A stretch of 5,290 nt of DNA, from assembly GCA_030597485.1 (NCBI GenBank), contig JAUVRU010000196.1, positions 1 through 5,290 on the forward strand, read 5' to 3'. Positions 1 to 5,290 of the stretch are shown in pieces. The first letter of the stretch is position 1; each line of letters opens with the position of its first letter. A program made the translations under genes and the position numbers. The notes below the pieces were generated by a model. That model saw only the letters and a list, made by a program, of their open reading frames with translations. It searched no databases and was not told the DNA's origin. Source of the DNA: Anaerolineae bacterium. Lineage in GTDB: Bacteria; Chloroflexota; Anaerolineae; 4572-78; NAK82.

Positions 1-182
1 CGCACCTGCGCCAGGCGTTGCGCCGCGACATCCTCGGAGTTCACCTCAAGGACACAGTGAAGGCGCGGCGCTTGTTGCCCAATGGCAGCTATGAACACAC
101 GCGCCCCCAGGACGACCAGACACCGCTGAACTCGCAGGAATGGCTGATTGCACACCGTGGAAGCTGGAATGGCGAGGAATAG
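1..182 (+). CDS. ppk1: Polyphosphate kinase 1, C-terminal end (partial, 5' end outside window)
   Basis: This is the last 59 codons of a gene entering from the left. The reading frame begins at position 3 and ends at TAG 180-182. The translation starts HLRQALRRDILGVHLKDTVK, continues with ARRLLPNGSY and ends with NSQEWLIAHR plus a short tail. The L-x-D-T-V-K-A-R core, the following N-G-S-Y and the S-Q-E-x-L near the end match the extreme C-terminus of PPK1 as I remember it; E. coli PPK also has DTVKAR here. PPK1 makes long-chain polyphosphate from ATP reversibly and is usually about 700 residues, so the catalytic histidines lie outside the window. The convergent neighbour carries polyphosphate-associated domains, which supports the call. 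The fragment is short, so family assignment rests on one conserved block. Confidence 0.85.
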   Translation, partial: HLRQALRRDILGVHLKDTVKARRLLPNGSYEHTRPQDDQTPLNSQEWLIAHRGSWNGEE

Positions 183-208
183 GGATCACCGATGTGGAAC
201 GGTGATCC
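183..208 (+). other. Stem-loop directly after the ppk1 stop codon
   Basis: A perfect 9-bp inverted repeat, GGATCACCG (183-191) and CGGTGATCC (200-208), encloses an 8-base loop. It starts at the base after the ppk1 stop codon. No T-run follows on either strand, so it is not a classical intrinsic terminator. It could protect the 3' end of the mRNA or assist termination. Confidence 0.55.
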
Positions 209-238
209 TCGACGCAGGCAACGATTCCCACGGTCGGG

Positions 239-283
239 AAAAGGCCACGAGCAGCCTGATTCCCCCTCAGCTGGCGCCGTTTT
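239..283. terminator. Candidate bidirectional terminator between convergent genes
   Basis: CAGC (252-255) plus TGA (257-259) pairs with TCA (267-269) plus GCTG (270-273) around a 7-base loop, with one bulged C. An outer GGC/GCC pairing (243-245 with 276-278) is possible. On the + strand TTTT follows at 280-283. On the - strand the complement of AAAA 239-242 gives TTTT after the stem. Short T-runs on both sides of one hairpin between two facing genes suit a shared terminator. The stem is imperfect and the T-runs are short. The + strand T-run abuts the stop codon of the facing gene. Confidence 0.4.
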
Positions 284-285
284 CC

Positions 286-2847
286 TTATAGCACCGCCAC
301 CGCCTGCATCAGCAGTTGCTTGAACCGAGAGCCGTGGAATCCTCTCCAGACGGACGGAAACTCCCCTAACAGGCGCTGGAGTTCCATCTGCCGGTTGGCC
401 AGGTAGGTCGCGACACCGGGAGCGATCACAAGCGCTTCCGAAATGGGTCGTTGTTTGGGCACGTGCCCCCACGTCCCCCAGGTCAAGAAATCGCGCAATA
501 GATTGCAGGCCACCACTGCATCTTGAAGGTCCCCCAGGTTGTCCTGCAGCGCCTTGACTTCCTCTATCAGGATTTCTGCCTCCGGCCCCAACACCTCTCG
601 GAAGTACTCCAGGGTGTAGCGCAACCCTTTGCTGGTTATGCGCAGCTGATGGTATCGCTCCAGGGGCACCTCTGCCCCCGTCATCCATTCGTCGTAGGCC
701 CATACATCTGCCATCCGGCGATACACAGCAATGGGCACGGTGTGCCGCAACCGATGCGGCCGAGGACCGTCCTGTTGCCAGTCTACCGCTAACGCGCCGG
801 CCCCGGGTGTTTGCAGGAATTCGCCAAACTGCTGCACAAACAGAGCGTAGCGCTCGCTGTCAAGATAGGCCAGCATCCTCTCTCGCGCCACCTCACGTTG
901 CGACGTCAGAACCCGCAGCAGCGGGTCCAACTCGCTCCGACGGTCTCGGGGCCGACCCTTCAGGTACTTGCGAGCCTTCTGCTGGAACACGTCCAGGTCT
1001 CGCACGGCTCCCAGCGCTCGGCCAGTACGTCGCATACCCTTGACGAACGGTCTCATCCGCTCCATATCCAGATAGTCGGAGAAGACCGGCATGGCCGCTC
1101 GCATGCGACGGGTGGCCACCCGCATATCGTGCAGATCTTCCGCATCTTCTCCCACTCGAGTCCCCGCCTCATGCGCCAACATTCGCTGAAAATGGAAGAG
1201 CAAGGTCTTGCGAGCAGCCTCGGCCATCGTGTCGTCCGGTTCCAGCCCCGGTGTCTCAAGCAGTTCGGCTGTTTCGGCAACGACGTCCGGCTGGGTCACT
1301 TCCACAGGCAGCAGTGGCTCCCTGACCATTGCACCAGCACCCTCCGTGGGGGCGAAGCGAACCTTCACGTCGAACAGAAGGTGCCACATATCGGTTAGCT
1401 CCTGTGCCTTCTCAGCATCCACCGCCGCAAAGGGACCGCGCAACGCAATCTGAACCCCGCCTTTCTTCTGCTGGATGCCATGCAATTGGCTGCTGCCCTG
1501 CGAGTAATCCATGCCGTCCGCCATTCGCACGAGAGCGGCCAGAACCAACGTTTCTCTCTGCGCTGATTCGGGCAGCGTACCCAGGTATCTGGCAATCAGC
1601 TTCTCCATTGTCTTGGCCGTGATCAGTCTGCGATGCAACAGGGTCGTGGCCGCCACCATCTGGCGTTCTCGGTCGCTCAGCCCTGCCGGCGGATGTGCCA
1701 GCAGAATGTCATAGCCCACCATGTCGGACCGTGCACTATTGGTGGCAAAACCGATGTCGTGCACCAATGCCGCGGTCTCCAACAACCGGCGGCGTTCAGG
1801 CGGCAAGCCGTGGATAGGGAGCAGATGGTCAAACAATGCCAGGGCAAAGCCAGCCACGGCCCGAGCGTGGGACCGGTCCACTTCGTAGTGTTTGAACAGC
1901 AGTTCCATCGGCCACGGCTGAGGCGACCGGCCGGTTCTGCGCCAGGGCCTTGACGCCTTCGTCGCTCCGGCCGGTGGGGAAGTAGCAGGCGTCGCCCCCA
2001 CAGAGGCCAGCACACGGTCGGGAAAGACAACCAGCCGCTGCCTGCAAAACTGGGCCTGCCAGTATCGTACTCTGCGCTCAGACATTCCCGCCTGCTCTCC
2101 AGCCAATTTCTGTGAAGCGCCACCACCCACTGCCAGCAGTGCCATCGCCCGCCGGCCATGCAGGTCATCCCGCTCGGCCAATTGCGTGCAGATCGCCCGT
2201 TCCTCAACTGTCAACAGCCCGTCCGGAGCCAGGCTCTCCGCCAAAAAGACCAACGCCCGCTCAAATTTGGACCGTGACTCGGGCTGCAGTCCCCAGTCTT
2301 TCTGCAGACAGGATGCGATGGATACCAGTTCTTCTTCCGCCCCATCGGGGGCCAGCTCAACCTCCAGCTCGAAATAGGATTGCCGATTGTCACCAACAGC
2401 CAGATGCACATCGTCCAGGCTCAATTCGGCCACCAACCTCTCGCCCTCTCGTAGCAGCCGCACCACCCTCGTCTGACGCAGATCAAACACGGGGACCAGA
2501 GGGGCATCCCCAATCAGTTCCAGCACCCGATCACGCACCGGACTGGCCGGCCACTGGGATGGCGGAAGGTCCTGGGGCGATAGAACCTCCAGCTCCTCCC
2601 GTCGGTGAATGGCGCCCTCAGTCCTCTCCAGCCCCTTGAGGGTGAACATCGTCGTCTCGTCGTCTCGTTCTCGACGGCGACAGGCGTAGCCGGCAGCCAG
2701 AATCGACCGGTCTGGTGTGTCCACATAGGTGTCGTGCAGTATCCTGGCCTGACCGGCTGAAAGTGAGAAACCGGCCAAGTCACTCGCTGATTGGAGCCGG
2801 TTGAACATCTCCTCTGTCGACACGACAAACTTGGCCTCGATCTCCAC
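286..2847 (-). CDS. CYTH - HTH-like - Ppx-type HD - CHAD multidomain protein (polyphosphate-associated)
   Basis: The 853-residue protein has four modules. CYTH (about 1-203) shows the E-x-E-x-K signature (E2, E4, K6), basic residues R57-R59 and K71, R82-R83, the acidic E160/E162/E164 strand and K194. An HTH-like segment (about 211-278) ends in MSERRVRYWQ and is followed by a basic, Pro-rich linker. A Ppx/GppA C-terminal HD region (about 313-500) carries H327, H363-D364 in ALVHDIG, H405 and D444. CHAD (about 538-850) has two copies of its basic motif: H573-x2-R with R580/R581/R583, and H733-x2-R with K740/R743. CYTH domains bind or cleave triphosphates and CHAD binds polyphosphate, so a cytosolic polyphosphate role beside ppk1 is inferred. 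The ASKHA half of exopolyphosphatase is absent. There is no signal peptide or membrane segment. GTG 2847 is preferred because AGGAG (2854-2858) lies 6 bases upstream; TTG 2853 would touch it. The actual reaction is unknown. Confidence 0.9.
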   Translation of the reverse strand: MEIEAKFVVSTEEMFNRLQSASDLAGFSLSAGQARILHDTYVDTPDRSILAAGYACRRRERDDETTMFTLKGLERTEGAIHRREELEVLSPQDLPPSQWPASPVRDRVLELIGDAPLVPVFDLRQTRVVRLLREGERLVAELSLDDVHLAVGDNRQSYFELEVELAPDGAEEELVSIASCLQKDWGLQPESRSKFERALVFLAESLAPDGLLTVEERAICTQLAERDDLHGRRAMALLAVGGGASQKLAGEQAGMSERRVRYWQAQFCRQRLVVFPDRVLASVGATPATSPPAGATKASRPWRRTGRSPQPWPMELLFKHYEVDRSHARAVAGFALALFDHLLPIHGLPPERRRLLETAALVHDIGFATNSARSDMVGYDILLAHPPAGLSDRERQMVAATTLLHRRLITAKTMEKLIARYLGTLPESAQRETLVLAALVRMADGMDYSQGSSQLHGIQQKKGGVQIALRGPFAAVDAEKAQELTDMWHLLFDVKVRFAPTEGAGAMVREPLLPVEVTQPDVVAETAELLETPGLEPDDTMAEAARKTLLFHFQRMLAHEAGTRVGEDAEDLHDMRVATRRMRAAMPVFSDYLDMERMRPFVKGMRRTGRALGAVRDLDVFQQKARKYLKGRPRDRRSELDPLLRVLTSQREVARERMLAYLDSERYALFVQQFGEFLQTPGAGALAVDWQQDGPRPHRLRHTVPIAVYRRMADVWAYDEWMTGAEVPLERYHQLRITSKGLRYTLEYFREVLGPEAEILIEEVKALQDNLGDLQDAVVACNLLRDFLTWGTWGHVPKQRPISEALVIAPGVATYLANRQMELQRLLGEFPSVWRGFHGSRFKQLLMQAVAVL

Positions 2848-2853
2848 AGGCAA

Positions 2854-2858
2854 CTCCT
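2854..2858 (-). promoter_or_regulatory. Ribosome binding site deciding the start of the CYTH/CHAD gene
   Basis: On the - strand AGGAG is followed by TTGCCT and then GTG, a 6-base spacing to the GTG at 2847-2845. The TTG at 2853-2851 has no spacing at all. An in-frame TAG overlaps this site just upstream, so the start cannot lie further out. The protein then begins directly with the CYTH E-I-E-A-K strand. Confidence 0.7.
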
Positions 2859-2912
2859 ATCTGGGCTACGACACTTGCCATCATCTTGACGTGGTGTTAA
2901 CGGCGCGTCCAC

Positions 2913-2941
2913 AGTATACCAATGTGCGGCACCAAACACAA
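2913..2941 (-). promoter_or_regulatory. Predicted sigma70-type promoter for the CYTH/CHAD gene
   Basis: On the - strand TTGTGT (2941-2936) is followed by a 17-base spacer and TATACT (2918-2913), which matches TATAAT at 5 of 6 positions. Transcription would start near 2906, giving a leader of about 60 bases to the GTG start. The -35 matches the consensus only in TTG, so strength is uncertain. The -35 elements of the two divergent promoters lie 24 bp apart. Confidence 0.5.
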
Positions 2942-2965
2942 GCGTACCGCCCACCGTCGCGATTC

Positions 2966-2994
2966 TTGTTGAGTTTCGGCAGTCAGGATATAAT
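2966..2994 (+). promoter_or_regulatory. Predicted sigma70-type promoter for the glcF-glcD pair
   Basis: TTGTTG (2966-2971), a 17-base spacer and a perfect TATAAT (2989-2994) form a credible promoter. Transcription would begin near 3001, just before the inverted repeat, leaving a leader of about 87 bases to ATG 3088. The -35 is weak beyond TTG, which would leave room for activator control. No convincing activator site was identified. Confidence 0.6.
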
Positions 2995-3005
2995 GGGCAA
3001 CCTGA

Positions 3006-3060
3006 GCTTGGGCGCCATCCGGATCCGCGTCCACCCCACAGCCTCGCCCGGCGCCCAAGC
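3006..3060 (+). repeat. Perfect 11-bp inverted repeat in the glcF leader
   Basis: GCTTGGGCGCC (3006-3016) is the exact reverse complement of GGCGCCCAAGC (3050-3060), separated by 33 bases. The loop holds a smaller palindrome, CGGATCCG (3020-3027). The repeat sits between the predicted transcription start and the glcF ribosome binding site. No T-run follows, so it is not an intrinsic terminator. It could be a leader RNA structure or a spaced DNA operator. The sequence alone does not separate these. Confidence 0.6.
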
Positions 3061-3087
3061 CGATGGGCGACTTGACTGGAGTTAGGT

Positions 3088-4461
3088 ATGATACGAGACC
3101 TTGAACTGCTCAGAACGGAGGACTTCAAGAGCAAAGTGAGGCAGTGCATCCACTGTGGTCTGTGCCTGGAGGCATGTCCTACCTATGCGGTGTTCGGCAC
3201 GGAGATGGATGGTCCCCGGGGGCGCGTTGCGCTGATGCGAGCAGCTTCCGAGGGCAAGGTCGGGCTTGAGGACTTCCGAGAGGCTCTTGCTCCTCACATC
3301 ATGTTGTGTCTGGTTTGCCGGGCGTGTGAGACAGCTTGCCCCTCCGGGGTGCAGTATGGCGCTCTGGTGGAGATGGCGCGGGTCGTCGTGGAACACAACC
3401 GCACGCCCGGCCTGGCAGAGCGGTTCTTGCGCTGGCTGGGGACTCAACAGTTGATGCCCAGACTGGGACTCCTCAAGATGATCGCTCGTTTGATGTGGCT
3501 CTACCAGGTCATCGGCCTTCAGCACCTGGTGCGGGCCCTGAATTTCCTTCCCAAGACACTCGGGGCGATGGAGGGCATCTTGCCCCCTATCGTGCCCAGA
3601 TTTGCGGACTACCGCAGACCAGCCCCGGCGACAGCCACCAGACGGGGCACTGTGTTCTTCTTTGCCGGGTGCATTCAGGAAGCCTTCCTGGCCCAGGTGA
3701 ACCAGGCCACCATTCGCGTGCTGCAACACAACGGCTACCAGGTCTGCACGCCCCAAGCACAAACCTGTTGCGGAGCTCCGCATCTTCACCTGGGGGATTT
3801 GGAGACTGCCCGGAAACTGGCCCGCCGCAATATCGATGCCTTCCTGGCACAGGAAGGCGAATGCGAAGCCGTGATCTGCAACGCGGGAGGCTGCGGCCTG
3901 ACGCTCAAGGAATACCCACACCTCCTGGCAGACGATCCCATTTATGCCCCACTGGCCAGCAAGTTCGCCACACAGGTGAAAGACGTCACTGAGTTCATAG
4001 CCGACCACTTCCACGTGCCACCTCGCGGTGAGGTCAAGGCACGGGTAACCTACTCAGATTCGTGCCATCTTCGCCACGGCCAGAAGGTTGTCAAACAGCC
4101 GCGCGAGCTGCTCAAGGGCATTCCCGGTCTGCAATACGTCGAGCTGCAATTCCCGGATCGCTGTTGTGGCAGCGCCGGTGTCTACAATATTGCCCAGGTG
4201 GACACGGCCAACGAAGTCCTGGACGCCAAGATGGCCGACATTGCCGCCACCGGCGCCGATTTGATCGTGACGTCAAACACTGGTTGTCAGATGCAGCTGA
4301 TTGCCGGCGTGCGGCGTGCGGAGCTGAAAGCTAAGGTGATGCACGTGGTGGAAGTGCTGGATCTGTCCTACCGATATTCCGGTTCTGGGTCACACGACGT
4401 CGGTTCTCGGGAAGAGGATAGCTCCCAAGCACTGGCAAACGAGAATCCGACTGCACGATAG
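3088..4461 (+). CDS. glcF: Glycolate/D-lactate oxidase iron-sulfur subunit (GlcF-like)
   Basis: The 457-residue protein is the probable electron-transfer partner of the FAD subunit encoded next. Near the N-terminus are two 4Fe-4S motifs: C20-x2-C23-x2-C26-x3-C30-P and C74-x2-C77-x2-C80-x3-C84-P. Two cysteine-rich CCG-type domains follow, one with C195 and C227-C228-G, the other with C326 and C359-C360-G. This is the GlcF/GlpC/HdrD-like arrangement, and the following GlcD-type gene favours GlcF. Electrons would pass from FAD through the clusters towards quinone at the inner face of the membrane. ATG 3088 is preceded by GGAG (3078-3081) with 6-base spacing. E. coli GlcF is about 407 residues; the excess here includes a Ser/Glu-rich, probably disordered tail (about 431-457). 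There is no signal peptide. Glycolate and D-lactate cannot be told apart as substrates. Confidence 0.88.
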
Positions 4462-4489
4462 AAAGTGCTGCTGCAGGAAAGGGAAATCC

Positions 4490-5290
4490 ATGGCCACGAT
4501 TGTCCAAGACAAGGACTATGACTCACTGGCTCGCCTGCTGGGGTCCGGACAGGTCATCACCAATCCAGTTGAACTGATCACCTACGAGGTGGATGGCGCC
4601 TTGCGGCGTGGTCACCCAGACGTGGTGATCCTGCCCCATACTGCGGACGAGGTAGTCCAGGTGGTCCGATGGGCGGCGGAACACCATGTGCCACTGGTGG
4701 CGCGGGGGGCGGGCACCGGGCTGTCGGGGGGAGCGGTAGCCGAGAATGGCGGGCTGGTCCTTGGCTTCTCACGTATGAAGCGTGTCCTCGAGTTTGACCC
4801 TGCCGGGCGCAGCGCCGTGGTCGAGCCGGGCGTGATCAACCTGAGGTTGGACGAAGACGCCAGGAAGGTTGGCCTTTTCTTCCCGCCGGACCCGGCCAGC
4901 GGCCGGGCGACCACAATTGGCGGTAACATCGGCGAAAACTCAGGTGGGCCCCATTGCTTCAAGTACGGTGTGACGACCAATTTCGTCACCGGCCTGGAGC
5001 TGGTGCTGGCCGATGGTCGCATCGTTCAGCTGGGTGGAGAGGCCATGGACTATCCCGAGTATGACTTCACCGGGCTGCTGATCGGGAGTGAGGGCACACT
5101 GGGCATTACCACCAAGGCCAGCGTGCGGCTGCTGCGGAACCCGCCGGCCGTGAAGACGACGATGGCCGCCTTTGATACCGTGCAGGAGGCGGGGGAAGCC
5201 GTCTCAGCAGTTATCGCTCGCGGGTTGGGGCCGGCCACTCTGGAGATGAGGGATCAGAAGATGATGGGGATCATCGAGGACTCATCCCCC
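4490..5290 (+). CDS. glcD: FAD-linked 2-hydroxyacid oxidase, GlcD-like (partial, 3' end outside window)
   Basis: The frame is open from ATG 4490 to the window edge, giving 267 residues of a family usually about 460-500 long. The PCMH/VAO-type FAD-binding domain is clear. It shows the pyrophosphate loop [10 protein letters not shown] (72-81), then PPDPAS (132-137), the [12 protein letters not shown] block (142-153), KYGVT (158-162) and [10 protein letters not shown] (198-207). From about residue 210 the FAD-oxidase C-terminal, substrate-binding domain begins and is cut off. The enzyme would oxidise glycolate, D-lactate or a related 2-hydroxyacid to the 2-oxoacid. AGGGA (4480-4484) lies 5 bases before the ATG. 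The gene starts 28 bp after the glcF stop with no promoter or terminator seen between, so cotranscription is likely. D-lactate dehydrogenase of the same family is the main alternative. Confidence 0.9.

Follow-up and report, generated by a model that had tools for sequence, protein, structure and literature searches.

A four-module CYTH-HTH-HD-CHAD protein convergent with ppk1 in an Anaerolineae bacterium and its proposed role in polyphosphate handling

A stretch of 5,290 nucleotides from an Anaerolineae bacterium (GenBank assembly GCA_030597485.1, contig JAUVRU010000196.1, positions 1 to 5,290; the whole stretch is called the window here) carries a gene whose product joins a CYTH domain of the triphosphate tunnel type, a helix-turn-helix (HTH) segment, the HD-fold domain III of Ppx/GppA exopolyphosphatases and a CHAD domain. 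The gene faces the end of a gene for polyphosphate kinase 1 (ppk1, protein PPK1). What does such a protein do beside an enzyme that makes polyphosphate (polyP)? A preliminary description of the sequence had offered two possibilities, a polyP sensor-regulator and a polyP-processing scaffold. CHAD proteins bind polyP, but their cellular role is mostly a proposal so far. The answer favoured here, with moderate confidence, is a tripolyphosphatase that is tethered to polyP by CHAD and serves enzymes that make polyP (PPK1) or turn it into nucleotides (PPK2 and adenylate kinase, ADK), the HD module being mostly retired.

Modules of the protein and its relatives

The gene and its modules are positioned as follows.

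286..2847, minus strand: coding sequence of the four-module protein, 853 amino acids (aa), GTG start, with AGGAG at 2854-2858
2257..2844, minus strand: CYTH/triphosphate tunnel domain, residues 4-199, Pfam E 2e-16
1984..2238, minus strand: helix-turn-helix segment, residues 206-290, HTH_28 match at 234-269
1501..1899, minus strand: Ppx/GppA domain III with the HD fold, residues 319-451; H329, H365-D366, H407, D446 and D449 retained, S and D at the positions of H376 and H377
493..1200, minus strand: CHAD domain, residues 552-787; H575, R578, R582, R618, R745 and Y746 correspond to the polyP-binding residues of the Chlorobium tepidum CHAD protein (CtCHAD)

The open reading frame (ORF) starts at a TTG and spans 286-2853 on the minus strand (855 aa); residue numbers follow this 855-aa numbering. 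The GTG at 2847 is the preferred start because it is preceded at 6 nt by AGGAG and the matching Met is the start in most relatives, and the gene limits first proposed, 286-2847, are therefore kept. The Pfam matches to CHAD (E 2e-51), CYTH and Ppx-GppA_III (PF21447, E 7e-12) all exceed the curated cut-offs, and the general HD family PF01966 is also matched (E 2e-5). The HTH_28 match, at E 0.02, is below its cut-off; modelled separately, the segment forms a helix-turn-helix with a pLDDT of 90. Together, the significant Pfam matches and the HTH model bear out the claim that a single polypeptide contains all four modules. PF02541, which represents the ASKHA catalytic domains I and II of Ppx, was not matched by Pfam in the protein up to an E-value of 1.

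The architecture is widespread. A protein search gave 1689 matches at E<=1e-3 from 7997 scored candidates. The best 120 of these, which were inspected, all contain Ppx-GppA_III and CHAD, and 116 of them contain CYTH. Eleven of the same 120 carry in addition a C-terminal adenylate kinase that follows similar linkers (P0012, P0029, P0030, P0034, P0037, P0039, P0042, P0043, P0053, P0059 and P0081); the kinase part of P0012 clears the NCBIfam equivalog cut-off, and P0081 has no CYTH match. Scanning GTDB genomes yielded 419 stretches encoding relatives, of which the best 80 loci were kept. The layouts of these 80 were read with module profiles made from a 38-row alignment that includes the window protein, so that modules weaker than E 1e-3 would escape. 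The CYTH-HTH-HD-CHAD order is shared by 33 loci (20 Methanosarcinaceae or Euryarchaeota, 13 Chloroflexi or Anaerolineae records), which answers the question whether homologues have the same architecture. HTH-HD-CHAD occurs in 13 loci, two of which (L009 and L032) have CYTH as a separate gene just upstream and one of which (L030) is cut by a contig end. The remaining layouts are CYTH-HTH-CHAD (15), CYTH-CHAD (10), HD-CHAD (5), HTH-CHAD (2) and CHAD only (2, one of them masked). The four-module proteins are a real and populous group, a new form of CYTH-CHAD protein of the YgiF type. In the part of the open literature covered, no paper was found to describe the four-module protein, the fusion to adenylate kinase or the linkage to ppk2. 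CYTH-CHAD or CHAD proteins, rather than the four-module architecture, are the subject of the passages considered from PMC3783465, PMC6416229, PMC6973038 and PMC8981147, and CHAD is unmentioned in PMC6864096, PMC6821655 and PMC13318637. Fusions of CYTH were described by Iyer and Aravind in 2002, as cited in PMC8233210.

The CYTH module has the tunnel fold and the ExExK motif of acidic-patch triphosphate tunnel (TTM) tripolyphosphatases, and its model matches the structures of YgiF and plant TTM3. The metal and catalytic residues of Escherichia coli YgiF, E4, E6, R56, K69, E160 and E162 (PMC4641920), correspond to E4, E6, R59, K73, E164 and E166 of the window protein in a profile alignment to entry 5a60. 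Both metal sites and the catalytic Arg and Lys of a tripolyphosphatase-type TTM are therefore present. None of the six residues varies among the 88 aligned four-module proteins (set A2: 75 bacterial and 13 archaeal rows, the window protein included), on which the conservation counts below are based unless another set is named. Among the loci, the six were read in 13/13 bacterial and 19/20 archaeal four-module proteins, in 15/15 CYTH-HTH-CHAD and in 8/10 CYTH-CHAD proteins, the three misses being due to unread positions.

The opposite activity was also considered, in which CYTH would synthesize rather than cut, either as an adenylyl cyclase, a role proposed for an Acidithiobacillus CYTH-CHAD protein (PMC6416229), or as a polyP polymerase resembling Vtc4. 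By the motifs that separate CYTH cyclases from phosphatases (PMC8233210), the module is of the phosphatase type. Class IV adenylyl cyclases (CyaB) are marked by HF before ExExK, a small residue in place of the first Arg of RxR and Ala in place of the second Glu of ExE. These motifs are absent here: the protein starts at ExExK, with no HF before it, and the Arg (R59) and Glu (E166) in question belong to the invariant residues. Vtc4 has no second metal site, whereas that site is invariant here, and the window genome has a PPK1. A synthetic role is most improbable.

At the other end of the chain, the CHAD module has the fold and the basic residues of a polyP-binding domain. The six residues listed above were mapped from those whose part in polyP binding was established by mutation (PMC6537752). 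Five of them are invariant, and R582 is present in 87 of the 88 proteins.

Gene neighbourhoods

PPK1, counted as any PPK1 part within 10 kb, is found in 47 of the 80 loci; the N-terminal 511-aa query alone gave 46/80 and missed a C-terminal fragment at L004. PPK1 is near 15/20 archaeal and 1/13 bacterial four-module genes, 13/15 CYTH-HTH-CHAD, 7/11 HTH-HD-CHAD, 0/2 split, 5/10 CYTH-CHAD, 4/5 HD-CHAD, 1/2 HTH-CHAD and 1/2 CHAD genes. The 12 HTH-HD-CHAD, HD-CHAD and HTH-CHAD genes that have PPK1 all lie behind it on the same strand, at distances of -88 to +109 bp. Archaeal four-module genes are also adjoined by a convergent Ppx gene in 16/20 loci; the neighbours in Methanosarcinaceae are ppx and ppk1.

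The main partners in Chloroflexota are ppk2 and adk. Downstream of the bacterial four-module genes, on the same strand and always within 2 kb, ppk2 occurs in 10/13 loci (two copies in seven, one copy in three). An adk gene is found in 4/13, at -139 to 34 bp, between the four-module gene and ppk2, and a thymidylate-kinase-like gene in 4/13. The order at L004 is four-module gene, adk, ppk2, ppk2 and then the end of a convergent ppk1. The ADK fusions described above mirror the neighbour order of L002, L004, L005 and L006. Neighbour families were checked on examples. By a rough estimate for a 4-Mb genome, a random gene would come as close as 6 kb to any chosen gene in well under 1% of cases, which argues that the links are not due to chance, although the loci are related and not independent. 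The PPK2 at L002:4556-5605 has an added domain like the C-terminal domain of the RNA polymerase alpha subunit (PF03118, E 1.5e-8). Look-alikes of the phosphohistidine phosphatase SixA, judged by eye from their N termini, were seen in the polyP neighbourhoods L137:5521-6093 and L143:15093-15620.

Two further features belong to the window's own neighbourhood.

3..182, plus strand: 3' end of the polyphosphate kinase 1 gene, comprising 59 codons and the stop codon; the gene continues beyond the contig end
182..209, strand not assigned: stem-loop between the convergent genes, a possible two-way terminator with no T run

The window holds only this 3' end of ppk1. Being a fragment, it scores below the cut-offs (NCBIfam PRK05443.2-2, E 1e-6; Pfam PP_kinase_C, E 0.009), and among its best 15 matches it is 45-60% identical to PPK1 C termini over 47-59 aa (best E 7e-19). 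The sole match of the window assembly to the PPK1 core (PP_kinase) belongs to a gene of contig C475 that is cut by the end of that contig. The two pieces fit one PPK1 with 145-149 aa absent between them in 13 of the 15 matches, those that hit both, and the two contigs probably adjoin. The stop codons of ppk1 and the four-module gene are 103 bp apart, and the tail-to-tail arrangement of the preliminary description is confirmed. The stem-loop folds with -17.1 / -16.3 kcal/mol (z -3.3 / -4.2) and was not picked up by a consensus terminator scan. The layout is echoed at L130, where ppk1 is followed by a calcineurin-like phosphoesterase gene and a convergent four-module gene. On the other side of the four-module gene, 3088-5290 encodes an iron-sulfur protein resembling GlcF and the beginning of an FAD oxidase resembling GlcD. 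This glycolate/lactate oxidase pair has no obvious connection with the four-module protein.

The adjacency to ppk1 that was to be surveyed thus stands for most archaeal four-module loci and for 47 loci overall; among the bacterial four-module loci it was seen in only 1/13. PPK1 may partly have escaped notice there, because contig ends cut the flanks of many bacterial loci. In a sample of the class, a match to the PPK1 core is present in 11 HD-bearing genomes besides that of the window, but the two share a contig only in G039; G348 is a second such case if the C-terminal PPK1 fragment of L004 is counted. A simple reading of the protein as a partner of ppk1 is too narrow.

Replacement of a missing Ppx by the four-module protein is likewise unsupported. 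PF02541 was not found in the window assembly, which is 71.65% complete, and 68 of the 396 genomes from the class have it above the cut-off. Among the 66 genomes that match the window protein, it exceeds the cut-off in 2/21 with an alignment covering the HD module vs 13/45 without, a weak difference, and the archaeal four-module loci mostly adjoin a Ppx gene.

The HTH segment and the HD module

A transcription regulator is the reading that the HTH segment most readily suggests: CHAD and CYTH would sense polyP or triphosphate, and the HTH would bind DNA to control ppk1 or ppk2. The families HTH_23, HTH_28 and HTH_29 match 24, 22 and 21 of the 38 aligned members (HTH_23 at E<=1e-3, best 2.5e-9), and the nearest structural neighbours of the HTH model are sigma region 4, PAX6 and HetR. 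The recognition helix (residues 258-273) has a mean net charge of +3.5 to +4.5 in four bacterial groups, and its Trp is present in nearly all bacterial copies. The basic helix is not conserved throughout the family, however. In 20 archaeal copies its mean charge is -0.8 (range -3 to +5), and W265 is found in none. Furthermore, the Chloroflexota four-module genes stand in same-strand rows with ppk2 and sometimes adk. For these reasons the sensor-regulator part of the earlier functional proposal is weak, and a regulator of this kind is quite unlikely; the polyP-processing scaffold part is supported by the residue conservation and by the neighbours seen over many genomes. In bacteria the HTH is probably an adaptor, either structural or in contact with DNA. 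Regulation through it is possible in bacteria and unlikely as a family-wide role.

The same segment could anchor polyP granules, coated by CHAD, on DNA for segregation, making the protein a granule-to-nucleoid tether of the phosin type. CHAD proteins do localize to polyP granules (PMC6537752, PMC10892726), and the bacterial HTH is basic. Such a tether would need neither an invariant catalytic CYTH nor a fusion to adk, and the archaeal HTH is not basic on average, so that this role is very unlikely.

Most members of the family have a degenerate HD metal site. One or more of its primary ligands, H329, H365, D366 and D449, are missing in 61/75 bacterial and 13/13 archaeal rows, and D366 is replaced by Asn in 48 of 64 homologues from the protein search. 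The HD doublet is intact in 2/13 bacterial and 2/20 archaeal four-module, 1/13 HTH-HD-CHAD and 2/5 HD-CHAD proteins; in the same set of loci it is intact in 28/28 stand-alone Ppx and 4/5 Metallophos-HD proteins. The count of H407 in the stand-alone set, 32/33 or 27/33, varies with the alignment settings. Lys or Arg stands in place of the first ligand in 18/20 archaeal loci, as if the metal site had turned into a polyanion site. In Methanosarcinaceae the ligands of the four-module HD are changed to Lys, Arg or Gln and the HTH Trp is lost, while Ppx of the same loci keeps its doublet in 16/16.

These losses bear on the possibility that the protein is a double hydrolase, in which the HD would be an active metal phosphohydrolase for polyP, (p)ppGpp or a cyclic nucleotide beside the CYTH tripolyphosphatase. 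All four ligands are kept in 14/88 proteins, that of the window among them, and 12/88 also keep H376 and H407. On a quick, midpoint-rooted whole-protein tree of set A2 the retention of the site needs 6 changes, compared with a mean of 13.2 after shuffling, and 5 of the 6 involve well-supported branches; the keepers are thus clustered, and some clades may have a reason to retain the site. The widespread loss of ligands elsewhere and the absence of H376 and H377 from the window HD make an active second hydrolase unlikely.

The neighbouring Ppx is probably not the source of the fused HD. When 86 HD modules are placed in one tree, a 100/100 branch has Ppx and Metallophos-HD proteins on one side and all CHAD-fused HDs, together with one stand-alone HD-like ORF of L018, on the other, and capture from the adjacent gene is accordingly unsupported. 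Archaeal four-module HDs group with those of Chloroflexota (93/94, in the set of 28 that holds both), which would fit a transfer from bacteria to Methanosarcina as one reading of the tree.

Some HD-like modules occur outside CHAD proteins. Short stand-alone ORFs with the fused-type HD profile are present in Methanosarcina loci (L018:18122-18766, L015:14524-15137; 215, 137 and 77 aa). Five loci (L031, L035, L071, L072 and L074) encode a 433-473-aa fusion of a calcineurin-like phosphoesterase to Ppx domain III, Pfam having been run on four of the five, and the CHAD proteins of these five loci showed no HD. The phosphoesterase lacks HD in seven other loci and in L130; the CHAD protein bears HD in 5 of these 8, with L036 masked. 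The HD module seems to swap between neighbouring genes, in what is a small sample: the counts rest on 12 hits, a wider count being inflated by the HD-bearing query, which also matches Ppx.

Proposed role and known systems

In the tethered tripolyphosphatase proposed here, the C-terminal CHAD is predicted to grip a polyP chain, and the N-terminal CYTH tunnel would likely hydrolyse tripolyphosphate or short chain ends, by analogy with YgiF. The HD module would be mainly a non-catalytic remnant, guide or spacer in most members. PPK2 and ADK encoded nearby may draw nucleotides from polyP, and CYTH could clear the short remnants that such polyP-consuming kinases leave. With relatives that mostly lie beside genes for predicted polyP synthesis or polyP-driven recharging of nucleotides, the protein is a likely hub of phosphate-energy storage.

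Several observations weigh against this picture. Only one of the 13 bacterial four-module loci, besides L130 and the window itself, has ppk1 nearby, and all five neighbour families are absent from nine of the 80 loci, several of which have short flanks. In the window genome the ppk2 pair and adk are on other contigs (C326 and C226, respectively), and no four-module gene stands beside the tandem ppk2 pair on C326. The whole-protein model has a pTM of 0.47, too low to fix the mutual arrangement of the domains. Lastly, the window HD and the other seven rows of its subclade all retain the four primary ligands, so that a retired HD is true of the family only; some HD activity is conceivable in the window protein for this reason.

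A more elaborate arrangement is possible, though doubtful, in which the protein forms the core of a polyP-to-ATP machine: CHAD and a repurposed, non-catalytic Ppx domain III would thread polyP to the PPK2s and to an ADK, which some species have fused to the protein, and CYTH would destroy the leftover tripolyphosphate, which is of no use to these kinases. In that case Ppx domain III would be a portable module for handling polyP, joined to ASKHA domains in Ppx, to a calcineurin-like phosphoesterase and to a triphosphate tunnel. In either arrangement, the combination of CHAD, a tripolyphosphatase-type tunnel and Ppx domain III with ADK or PPK2 gives CHAD proteins a concrete and testable job, the handling of polyP during its synthesis or during nucleotide charging. 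The family is also a natural test of Ppx domain III without its usual catalytic partner.

Among the closest known systems is E. coli YgiF (5a60), which has an N-terminal triphosphate tunnel with the same six catalytic and metal residues and a C-terminal CHAD, and whose tripolyphosphatase activity is stimulated by its own CHAD (PMC6537752). YgiF, however, has 433 aa and a reported two-domain structure without the HTH or Ppx domain III. The CHAD protein of C. tepidum (6qv7/6qva) shares the fold and the six polyP-binding residues, whereas the window CHAD is one of four modules in a single chain. Ppx/GppA exopolyphosphatases share domain III; the window protein lacks their ASKHA domains, and most members have a degenerate HD site, in contrast to the neighbouring Ppx. 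In Acidithiobacillus, ppk and CYTH-CHAD genes are found together (PMC10892726, PMC6416229). PptA, a phosin of the Streptomyces ppk-pptA operon, is likewise a CHAD protein encoded next to ppk, and has been proposed to present polyP to degrading or ATP-drawing enzymes (PMC8003754, PMC8981147). The HTH-HD-CHAD relatives that directly follow ppk1 come closest to it in layout. PptA is described as a CHAD protein without polyphosphatase activity, whereas the four-module protein has a CYTH of the catalytic type.
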